Below, piece by piece: positions 16,296 to 19,230 of a DNA stretch of 64,000 bases. The notes beneath the pieces were generated by a model. It did not search any database. It was not told the DNA's origin and worked only from the letters and a program-made list of their open reading frames with translations. The stretch's first letter is position 1. Each line of letters begins with the position of its first letter. The translations under genes were made by a program, and so were the position numbers. The stretch is from Streptomyces sp. SJL17-4 (GTDB lineage Bacteria > Actinomycetota > Actinomycetes > Streptomycetales > Streptomycetaceae), in contig NZ_CP104578.1 in the NCBI RefSeq assembly GCF_036826855.1, forward strand, positions 5,863,501 to 5,927,500, given 5' to 3'.

Positions 16296-16724
16296 TCAGA
16301 CGCCCGCCAGGCCGCCGATCGCCGCCAGCGCCCACTCCTGGGCCCCCACCGTCGCGCCGGCCGCGACGCCGGTGGCCACCGGGGCGAGCGCGCCCCGGAG
16401 CAGGGTGAGCGCCCGGCGCACCCTGCCCTCCTCGACCGGCTCCTCCTGGCTGATCACCGCCAGGACCTCCTCGGCCGCCTCCTGGGTGTCCTGCCGGTCC
16501 TGCTCGGCGAGCCCGGCCCCCGGGAGCTGCCGGAGGAGTTCGTTCACCCGCTCGGCGAGCACCTCGTACCCCGGTGCGACCGGGCCGGCCGGGCCGTTGT
16601 TCTGCTGGTTCTGGGTGGCGGTCTCGTTGTCCCAGGCGAACTGGCCCTGCGAGACGGCGCCGTGGAACACCGGTCCGTTGTAGTGGTTCACCTGCGGTGC
16701 GTCGTTCTCGTCCGGTCGGTTCAT
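16296..16724 (-). CDS. Small protein with N-terminal amyloid-like motif and hydrophobic C-terminus
   Basis: A 142-residue protein with no named family that I recognise. Residues 13-41 carry the motif NGPVFHG, QFAWDNE, QNQQ, which repeats gaplessly (15 of 29 identical) the end of the protein encoded just upstream. Residues 50-115 are predicted helical and charged (ERVNELLRQLPG, EEAAEEVLAVISQEE-like, VEEGRVRRALTLLRG), and residues 107-142 are hydrophobic Ala/Gly-rich helices (APVATGVAAGATVGAQEWAL, AAIGGLAGV). The start overlaps the upstream stop as ATGA, so the two are made together. N-terminal Asn/Gly-rich motif plus membrane-active-looking C-terminal helix resembles effectors of amyloid signalling pairs; this is inference. 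Confidence 0.65.
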   Translation of the reverse strand: MNRPDENDAPQVNHYNGPVFHGAVSQGQFAWDNETATQNQQNNGPAGPVAPGYEVLAERVNELLRQLPGAGLAEQDRQDTQEAAEEVLAVISQEEPVEEGRVRRALTLLRGALAPVATGVAAGATVGAQEWALAAIGGLAGV

Positions 16725-18433
16725 GATCGGGAATCGTCGCCTTCTGTCCTCTGCCGGTTCTGGATGACGTTCTCGTTGCCCCAGGCCACCTGGATGTCCC
16801 GGGTCGGTCCGTTGAAGACCGGTCCGTTGAAGATGTTGATGACCTGCTGGGGCGGCCCGGCGGGCTTCTCCGCGTGCCGGAGGACCTTGAGCGAGGTGCG
16901 CAGCCCGGTCGTCTCGACCCGGCCGTTGCCGACGACGGCCGCCCCGCGGGTGCCGTTCACCGTGCAGTCCAGCAGTTGCCCGCCCGCCTCCTCGTCGAAA
17001 CTCGCGCCTGCGGTCGCGCAGTCGGTGAACTCGCTCCGGGTGACGTTCAGGTACGCGGAGCCCGTCCCGTAGACGCCGAACGCCCCCGAGCCGTTCACGG
17101 TCAGGTTCCGTGCGATGAGCCGACCGCTGCCGAGGGCCCCGGCCCCGGCGCTGCTCACCGCCGTGACGACGCTGTCGGTGACGCGCAGTTGGGCCTCGTC
17201 GGAGACGCCGAAACCCAGCATGCCGTGCTCCGCCGTCACGTTCCTGAGCGTGACGCGGGACTGGCCGCCGATGGCCACGGCGGCCATCTCGCAGTCGCGG
17301 AACACCGTGTCGGTGACCTCGGCCGTGGTGCCGCCGTCGCCCCGGGCCTCCAGGCCGGACTGGCAGCGGTCCACGCGTACCTGCTCGAAGGTGGCCCCGG
17401 AGTCGTCGAAGACCCGCAGCGCGGCGTTCGTCAGGTCCTCGACCGCGATGCCGGTGAAGCGGCCCCGGGAGCTCTCGGTGACCGCGATCCCGACGTTGCC
17501 CCCGGCGATGCGGCCCCCGTGCACCTCCGGCGCGCCGCCCTTGGTCGCGAACACGGCGATATTGCCGGAGCCGAGCACCTGGCAGTCCTCGAACCGGCCC
17601 CGGGCGGCCGTCTGCACGTTGATGCCGGTGTCGCGGCAGTCGGCGAGGACACAGCCGCGTACCACCGGGTCGGCGCCGCTCGACGCGCCGATGCCGTGCC
17701 GCGCGCCGGTGACCCGGGTGGTGTCGACGGAGCCCCGGGACTGCTCGGTGAACATGATCCCCTCGGCGTGCACGGCGGTGATCACGCAGTCCGTCACGAC
17801 GAGCCGCGCACGGGCGTCCGCCCAGAGGGCCGCCTGCCCGGTGCCGGTCAGCTCGCAGCCGACGAGCTCGGCGTGCGCGTCGCTGACCCGGAGCCCGTGG
17901 ATCCTGCTCCCCTCGATCCGGCTGCCCCGGACGGAGACCCGGGCCCCTTCGATGACGGCGATCGCGTTGTCGGCGGCGTCGGTGAACCGGCACCGCTCGA
18001 CCAGCCCCGCACCCCCGGCGAAGAGCGCCCGGCCGTGGGCGATCAGACCGTCCCGCAGGGTGACCGTCGAGTGCGGCCGGGCGTGCACGGCGACGCCGTT
18101 GTGTGCCCAGACCTCGGTGTGGTCGAGGGTGAGCGTGCCCGCGTGGCAGGCGACGACGTCCGCCTCGCGGCCGACCAGCGTGAGGCCGTGCACCCGGACC
18201 GCTCCGGAGGCGTCCAGGACGGTGCCCCGGGGCAGGCCGACCACGACGGAACCGGGCCCCTCGGCCGCCACCAGCTGTACGTCACCCCGGACGACGAGGG
18301 CCTCCTCGTACCGGCCGGGCGCGATCTCGATCAGGGCCGGCCGGCCGCGCGCGCCCGCCGCCCGGAGCGCCGACGTGATGTCGGGGTGGGCGCGGCGGCC
18401 GCCGCGCGGCGAGACGACGTATCTCGCGACCAT
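16721..18433 (-). CDS. Right-handed parallel beta-helix protein with C-terminal shared motif
   Basis: A 570-residue protein. After MVARYVVSPRGGRRAHPDIT, residues 20-60 form the cap seen in periplasmic-type and Streptomyces beta-helix proteins (ALRAAGARGRPALIEIAPGRYEEA). Residues 60-525 are about 20 coils of a pectate-lyase-like solenoid with recurring patterns such as VRGSRIEGSRIHGLRVSDA and DCRDTGINVQ. In Streptomyces such helices are often fused to an AAA ATPase; here no ATPase follows. Instead residues 533-561 repeat the NGPVFNG ... AWGNE ... QN motif found at the start of the next protein. There is no signal peptide, so it is cytoplasmic. The ATG at 18433 follows GGGGGAG. Role unknown; a scaffold or sensor is plausible. 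Confidence 0.75.
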   Translation of the reverse strand: MVARYVVSPRGGRRAHPDITSALRAAGARGRPALIEIAPGRYEEALVVRGDVQLVAAEGPGSVVVGLPRGTVLDASGAVRVHGLTLVGREADVVACHAGTLTLDHTEVWAHNGVAVHARPHSTVTLRDGLIAHGRALFAGGAGLVERCRFTDAADNAIAVIEGARVSVRGSRIEGSRIHGLRVSDAHAELVGCELTGTGQAALWADARARLVVTDCVITAVHAEGIMFTEQSRGSVDTTRVTGARHGIGASSGADPVVRGCVLADCRDTGINVQTAARGRFEDCQVLGSGNIAVFATKGGAPEVHGGRIAGGNVGIAVTESSRGRFTGIAVEDLTNAALRVFDDSGATFEQVRVDRCQSGLEARGDGGTTAEVTDTVFRDCEMAAVAIGGQSRVTLRNVTAEHGMLGFGVSDEAQLRVTDSVVTAVSSAGAGALGSGRLIARNLTVNGSGAFGVYGTGSAYLNVTRSEFTDCATAGASFDEEAGGQLLDCTVNGTRGAAVVGNGRVETTGLRTSLKVLRHAEKPAGPPQQVINIFNGPVFNGPTRDIQVAWGNENVIQNRQRTEGDDSRS

Positions 18434-18468: not shown

Positions 18469-19230
18469 CTACAACTCGTCCCACTCCACCGAGTCGTAGG
18501 TCGAGTACACCCGCTCCATGAGCTCCTCGTCCACCGCGAACGTCACCTCGTCGATCGCCGTCACGGGCGCGATGGAACGGGAGTTGGTGACGAAAGCGGC
18601 CCGGTAGCCGGAGAGATCGGCCAGCGTGACCGGGCGCCGGGCCGACTCCAGGCGCGGCTCCAGGAGGGCCATGGTGATGCCGTGGAGGCAGGGTGCCGAC
18701 GGCCAGACCACCGAAGTGCCGTCCCAGAAGGCGATGTTGGTGACCGCGCCCTCGGCGATCTCGCCGTACGGGGAGGTCAGCACGGCCTCGTCGTAGCCGG
18801 AGCGCCGGGCCGCCTCGCGGTGGTAGCTCTGCCCGAAGCCGCCCAGGTGCTTGATCTGCGGTGCGGGCCGCCAGTACTCGACGGTCGTCAGGCGCTGCGG
18901 GGCGCCGGGCCCGTCCGGGGCGGGGGCGGCGACGGTCACCGCGATCCGGACGTCCGGGTACGCGTACACCCGCACCGAGGCGTTCCGCTGCCCGGAGGTC
19001 TCCAGGGCGCCGGTGATCAGGGCGCGGACGTGCTTGCCGTCCAGTCCCCTGCCGAAGAGCTCGCGGTTCGCGCGGTCGAGCCGGTCGAGGTGCAGGTCGA
19101 GGCCCTTCACGCGCCCGTCCCGCACCTGCATCGCCGTGAAGTGACCGAAGCCGGTCATGAGGGCGGCGAGCAGCCCGGGGTCGGTCGCGGGGGTGCCGTC
19201 GATCTCGATGTGCGGGGTCGGAGTCGTCAT
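18469..19230 (-). CDS. Aminotransferase class IV family protein
   Basis: PLP-dependent fold type IV protein of 253 residues, related to branched-chain aminotransferase and aminodeoxychorismate lyase. Seen are HLDRLDRANRELFG near residue 50, KHLGGFGQSYHREAA near residue 127 where Lys is the probable Schiff-base residue, GYDEAVLTSPYGEIAEGAVTNI (quoted in parts: YDEAVLTS, EGAVTNIAFW) for cofactor phosphate binding, and FVTNSRSIAPVTAID at the end. The substrate cannot be assigned; many Streptomyces carry this paralogue outside amino acid operons. It lies 36 bases upstream of the beta-helix gene and may share its transcript. It is divergent from the FMN reductase gene. Confidence 0.82.
   Translation of the reverse strand: MTTPTPHIEIDGTPATDPGLLAALMTGFGHFTAMQVRDGRVKGLDLHLDRLDRANRELFGRGLDGKHVRALITGALETSGQRNASVRVYAYPDVRIAVTVAAPAPDGPGAPQRLTTVEYWRPAPQIKHLGGFGQSYHREAARRSGYDEAVLTSPYGEIAEGAVTNIAFWDGTSVVWPSAPCLHGITMALLEPRLESARRPVTLADLSGYRAAFVTNSRSIAPVTAIDEVTFAVDEELMERVYSTYDSVEWDEL

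Follow-up and report, generated by a model that had tools for sequence, protein, structure and literature searches.

A motif shared at the facing ends of two adjacent Streptomyces proteins marks a candidate NLR-independent signalling or assembly module

The closest described systems are the bacterial amyloid-signalling (BASS) pairs, in which, according to the passages available from three papers, an NLR bears a short motif at its N-terminus and a Bell protein bears it at its C-terminus (PMC7889193, PMC8086366, PMC12261475). The portion of PMC12261475 concerned gives the motif a length of 21–40 residues; it is shared by adjacent or overlapping genes. A section of PMC7889193 asks whether signalling amyloids exist in NLR-independent pathways of fungi and bacteria, and the same source, in the part at hand, states that searches to date have been biased to the NLR/executor architecture. 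Another short motif of this kind, the RHIM, has the core G-(I,V)-Q-(I,V)-G, as given in an excerpt of PMC7885112.

Here we analyse a pair of overlapping genes in a 64,000-nucleotide stretch of DNA from Streptomyces sp. SJL17-4 (the window, meaning the whole stretch analysed), which encode a β-helix protein and a small helical protein (Table 1). No description of a β-helix/small-protein pair of this kind was found in the open-licence literature. An initial annotation of the window had given the coordinates and lengths of the two genes with their 4-base overlap, and had proposed that one Asn- and Gln-rich motif, alike over 29 residues without gaps, is carried C-terminally by the β-helix protein and N-terminally by the small one; all of this was confirmed. 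The two copies have 15 identical residues and 64 of 87 identical nucleotides, and their ungapped BLOSUM62 score is 84; the highest score among 300 whole-protein shuffles was 47, and 3000 shuffles confined to the two 70-residue tails gave at most 50. With composition adjustment off, blastp gives E 9e-8. The likeness is far beyond chance. Asn and Gln make up 31% of the copy in the β-helix protein compared to 4% of its residues 1–500, and 36% of the copy in the small protein compared to 8% of its residues 51–142. A motif profile (A1, 21 rows, the window's two copies among them) gave two matches at E ≤ 0.5 in the 8.5 Mb source genome, namely the two window copies.

Table 1. Positions of the two genes, their parts and the members of the sister subfamily
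Feature	Position	Strand	Role or support
β-helix protein gene, 570 aa	window 16721..18433	minus	putative sensor/scaffold; Pfam Beta_helix PF13229 and AlphaFold2 model
right-handed β-helix, residues 1-519	window 16877..18433	minus	Pfam, AlphaFold2, structural matches
C-terminal motif copy, β-helix protein residues 533-561	window 16751..16837	minus	profile A1, E 2.7e-16 for its genome
ATGA overlap, β-helix gene stop and small gene start	window 16721..16724	minus	sequence; kept in relatives
small protein gene, 142 aa	window 16296..16724	minus	putative effector/adaptor; 128 homologues besides itself, E<=1e-3
N-terminal motif copy, small protein residues 13-41	window 16602..16688	minus	profile A1, E 6.1e-17 for its genome
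four-helix domain, small protein residues 54-140	window 16305..16565	minus	AlphaFold2; distantly like DUF5955 and PADLOC PDC-M14B
sister subfamily members	L126:4866-5387, L131:4911-5375, L027:8535-9008, L161-L164; proteins P0242-P0258

The 570-residue protein matches the Pfam β-helix family with E 3.8e-46, and its AlphaFold2 model (35-row alignment) has a mean pLDDT of 91.8, with 483 of 570 residues at 90 or more. In the monomer the strands run to residue 519, and the tail 521–570 has block means of only 39–49. The structural matches of the model are carbohydrate-active enzymes, phage tail proteins and other β-helices, as expected of the β-helix fold generally. For the small protein (37 rows), AlphaFold2 places helices at residues 54–69, 74–91, 99–118 and 126–140 with block mean pLDDT of 78–90, and residues 8–45 of the monomer fall below 50. 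Both motif copies therefore probably lie in disordered tails, as judged from the models. The small protein had been proposed as a membrane-active effector, which our data do not support: its Kyte–Doolittle 19-residue maximum is 1.37, a value of 1.6 is reached by 4 of 120 members, and the model is a four-helix domain that is not clearly a membrane domain.

The four-helix part has two distant relatives, DUF5955 (PF19380), matched by 33 of 37 small-protein members at E ≤ 10 (best 1.7e-5), and the PADLOC defence candidate PDC-M14B, for which 34 of 37 members have a match at E ≤ 0.01, the best with E 4.6e-7. The window protein itself scores 17.9 bits against DUF5955, under the Pfam curated cut-off of 27.1, so the kinship is distant only; against PDC-M14B it matches profile positions 156–252 of 267 only (E 0.0016), and is not a full-length member. 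The kinship with PDC-M14B is a hint, no more, that the protein may have a role in defence. In the source genome, DUF5955 is matched at E ≤ 0.001 at one place only (C1:1723908-1724165), which lies about 4 Mb from the window pair and has no motif match.

The proposal that the two genes form a conserved neighbour pair was borne out. A scan of named genomes yielded 37 loci, 34 of them titled Streptomyces, with the motif-bearing small protein in all 37 and an adjacent β-helix gene with a C-terminal motif in 35, so that both genes and both motifs are present in 35 of 37. Within the genus, a full-length β-helix orthologue is found in 8 of 150 genomes (E ≤ 2.3e-187, next matches E ≥ 8e-25), the same eight have a close small-protein orthologue (≥60% identity), and each has exactly two motif-profile matches at E ≤ 0.5. 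When 394 genomes of the class were scanned, the motif was matched at E ≤ 0.001 in 12, with two adjoining matches in 8 and a single match in 4. G627 and G796, two of the 8 pair genomes, have a third copy at another place, and the pairing is thus not exclusive in every genome. The motif is present at E < 1e-3 in 120 of 120 β-helix homologues (the best 120 of 184), where it starts beyond 86% of the length, and in all 119 listed small-protein homologues (the best of 129, the window protein left out), where it starts within the first 34 residues; both sets consist of the nearest homologues and are little guide to distant ones.

After removal of two duplicates, 41 distinct pairs were available for comparison. 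Gene calling parsed 36 of them, and in all 36 the genes are adjacent with the β-helix gene first, while their upstream neighbours fall in 14 families. Of the 41 pairs, 34 retain the ATGA junction, which suggests translational coupling of the two genes. The positions most conserved in both copies are the same, i.e. G5, P6, V7, F8, Q16, A18, W19, N21, Q26, and Q28, and the core of the motif is mostly (S/A)-Q-(F/L/I/V)-A-W-(N/G)-N. The sensor copy is more conserved than the 25 residues that precede it (0.70 versus 0.41). Upstream of the window pair, a 253-residue gene on the minus strand (window 18469-19230) ends 35 bases before the β-helix start, and a similar gene is found at that place in 11 of 35 relatives with a parsed upstream gene; thus, the operon may share a transcript with it.

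The two copies also co-vary. When the two gene bodies are controlled for, sensor-motif distances correlate with effector-motif distances (partial Mantel r 0.46, permutation p 0.0002), and this value exceeds that of every one of 234 control window pairs, which have a mean of 0, an sd of 0.12 and a maximum of 0.28. Cognate copies share 14.4 of 26 positions compared to 13.5 of 26 for non-cognate copies (p 5e-5), a modest effect that amounts to about one residue more in 26. As related loci are not independent, we thinned them to clusters by β-helix identity: the median p is 0.001 with 34 clusters, 0.002 with 25 and 0.01 with 14, the signal is weak with 8 (a median p of 0.03, with 66% of the draws below 0.05), and it is absent with 4 (p 0.21). 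The partial r drops to 0.39 without locus L136, in which GPVF is lost from both copies and both read QIAVGNE, and to 0.33 without five divergent loci. The fraction of identical residues encoded by the same codon is 0.745 in cognate and non-cognate pairs alike (p 0.5); since cognate copies do not share codons more often, protein-level selection is a better account of the co-variation than recent gene conversion. A crude codon count gives nonsynonymous to synonymous differences of 13472 to 3125 and 9685 to 3080 in the two motifs, which is not a dN/dS in such GC-rich DNA and gives no sign of strong purifying selection, and therefore the case for constraint rests on the conserved positions rather than on a substitution ratio. 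One window of the β-helix body, at columns about 313–338 of the degapped alignment, has a partial r of 0.41 with the small protein's motif, and neighbouring windows have 0.22–0.29; these columns could mark a contact, or the correlation could be due to chance.

The matched ends and the joint change of the pair suggest a signalling switch laid out like the amyloid alarms of fungi and bacteria, with a different receptor. That the two proteins are motif-matched partners is well supported, and a putative amyloid templating between the copies is plausible. The reading we prefer, to which we give an even chance, is a two-protein signalling or assembly module, probably cytoplasmic, in which a homotypic contact between the motifs, probably by β-arch stacking, recruits or oligomerises the four-helix domain. 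The β-helix protein would be the receptor or scaffold, and its flexible C-terminal motif would recognise the N-terminal motif of the small protein, like with like, the two probably stacking as β-arches in a step resembling amyloid signalling. Once ligand-bound or clustered, the β-helix protein would recruit and oligomerise the four-helix domain, which would give the output. A direct motif–motif contact is what we infer; with less confidence, this contact may be a cross-β polymer, and the output might harm or arrest the cell.

Pairing, junction and co-variation would be explained equally well by ordered docking, where the motifs co-fold as a small β structure and hold the β-helix and four-helix parts in a stoichiometric complex with no polymer, and the low order of the free motifs would also fit such coupled folding. 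The copies, however, are alike rather than complementary and have their most conserved positions in common, so stacking of like with like fits better than two different docking faces, and the Asn and Gln content above 30% also speaks against docking. We regard docking as rather unlikely; if it is true, the module is a scaffold–subunit complex and not a templated switch.

The motif and the helical domain also occur without the β-helix partner. In a sister subfamily, a short conserved N-terminal extension (..LQREFDK.PIRI..) is followed by an almost identical motif and the same helical domain; its hosts are Actinosynnema, Amycolatopsis, Saccharothrix, Nocardia and some Streptomyces, and its genes are found on chromosomes and on plasmids (those of Saccharothrix and Nocardia). 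At 13 loci of motif-bearing small proteins that stand alone or are otherwise fused, phmmer finds no β-helix gene at E ≤ 1e-3 in the 7–17 kb examined, and no second motif there scores better than E 0.66. In G048 and G096 the small gene is present with a single motif in the whole genome. The G096 gene is split: it spans two reading frames (L028:8495-9069), near genes of transposase-like look. A homologue from another family (L095:7547-8131, G420; 45% identity over residues 37–138), more distant than the others, has the N-terminal extension and the helical domain, with a different glycine-rich stretch where the motif is expected; neither L095 nor L098, homologous in the helical part, has a motif-profile match at E ≤ 1, only a loosely similar stretch. 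Whether the motif always occurs in neighbouring genes had been raised in the initial annotation: it does so in 35 of 37 named-genome loci and 8 of 12 class genomes, and at the 13 partnerless loci it does not. That annotation had also held that small proteins with no motif or no partner would refute it, and this applies in part, the former kind being seen in L095 and the latter at the 13 loci.

Other arrangements were seen as well. G049, G087 and G101 (L031, L029 and L030) have two neighbouring small proteins, each with motif and helical part; the upstream one, about 500 bases off, carries the weak second motif (E about 0.01). The other is a more distant homologue of the window's small protein, phmmer finds no β-helix gene beside it, and the paired small proteins are a possible second architecture. 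The motif, or a motif-like stretch, also stands with the helical domain behind other N-terminal parts (L098:7021-7935, L138:3440-4507, L158 and L139:3773-4399), of which that of L139 is DUF1508 (E 1.8e-12) and some look winged-helix-like without Pfam support. As the motif is kept without a β-helix partner, it must also serve some purpose independent of one, self-assembly being the simplest, and the window operon may have arisen when a β-helix gene acquired a copy.

These partnerless proteins, and the motif inside proteins with other N-terminal parts, would also fit a shared ligand, i.e. a third partner such as a chaperone, a nucleic acid or a phage protein bound by both motifs with no mutual contact. 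Co-variation specific to each locus is not expected from a conserved common target unless that target also varies, and we consider this explanation improbable. A further alternative is a toxin–antitoxin-like arrangement, with the β-helix protein neutralising the small protein by holding its N-terminus. Overlapping genes, a patchy distribution and different genomic contexts would agree with it; the related small genes that stand without a β-helix gene do not, the sizes and gene order of the pair are unusual for toxin–antitoxin pairs, and its probability is very low. A recent functionless tandem duplication at the gene junction, to which the nucleotide identity of the window copies might point, has next to no probability and is regarded as already refuted by the motif in all 239 close homologues tested; the higher conservation of the sensor copy than of the residues before it and the lack of excess shared codons in cognate pairs also speak against it.

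As a further-reaching reading, we tentatively propose, with somewhat less than even confidence, a candidate NLR-independent bacterial amyloid signalosome. A β-helix receptor, itself a solenoid, would use its C-terminal β-arch motif to template the N-terminal motif of its partner, a four-helix effector of a new class, in the reverse polarity of the BASS pairs described in the papers cited above. Other actinobacterial proteins would have taken up the motif family for self-assembly, as an element inside the protein. The pair is a concrete, testable candidate: its motif matched no known family in this analysis, its receptor has a different fold, and its polarity is inverted. Its natural co-variation supplies cognate and non-cognate pairs for seeding assays, and it suggests for the first time what a group of hypothetical proteins, encoded on chromosomes and plasmids of actinobacteria, may do.

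To place the pair among known systems, we compared both proteins with their nearest counterparts. The next 14 matches to the β-helix protein in the 150 genomes of the genus have 27–34% identity (E 8e-25 to 1e-20) and longer frames, and both of the two tested have AAA and AAA_lid_6 domains, in agreement with the suggestion in the initial annotation that Streptomyces β-helix sensors normally have an AAA ATPase instead. At least 2 of the 120 listed β-helix homologues (the best 120 of 184) are named stage V sporulation protein K, and the β-helix AAA ATPases of Streptomyces are labelled SpoVK/CbxX-like. The window protein has a β-helix homologous to that of these ATPases; unlike them, it has neither AAA domain, ends in the motif and matches only β-helix-type Pfam families, and it is therefore not one of them. 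The motif resembles RHIM and PP motifs, as described in the part of PMC7885112 concerned, in its conserved central Gln, after which come a hydrophobic residue and a small one, and in flanking Asn. Its core residues differ from those of the RHIM in the 41 pairs, which rejects membership. Pfam includes a RHIM family, and no RHIM was among the Pfam matches of 21 motif peptides, in a search where HMMER filters drop most weak matches.

The likeness to BASS is one of layout. Both have adjacent or overlapping genes for one large receptor-like and one small helical protein, a short motif with Asn, Gln and Gly common to the two, and filamentous actinobacterial hosts, and the window pair, like BASS pairs, has a short motif shared by overlapping genes. 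Judged against the description of the Bell proteins, the small protein has a four-helix domain, and its hydropathy maximum is 1.37. On the other side, the pair has no NLR, its polarity is inverted and it has no clear membrane helix, and likeness of the motif to the one printed bacterial BASS3 peptide is no better than that of shuffles (820 of 5000 reach the score). Of the amyloid-signalling layout first suggested for the window, the adjacent genes and the terminal shared motif stand. As the layout is shared and the defining architecture is not, we do not file the pair as BASS; it is a new, NLR-independent version of the matched-motif layout.
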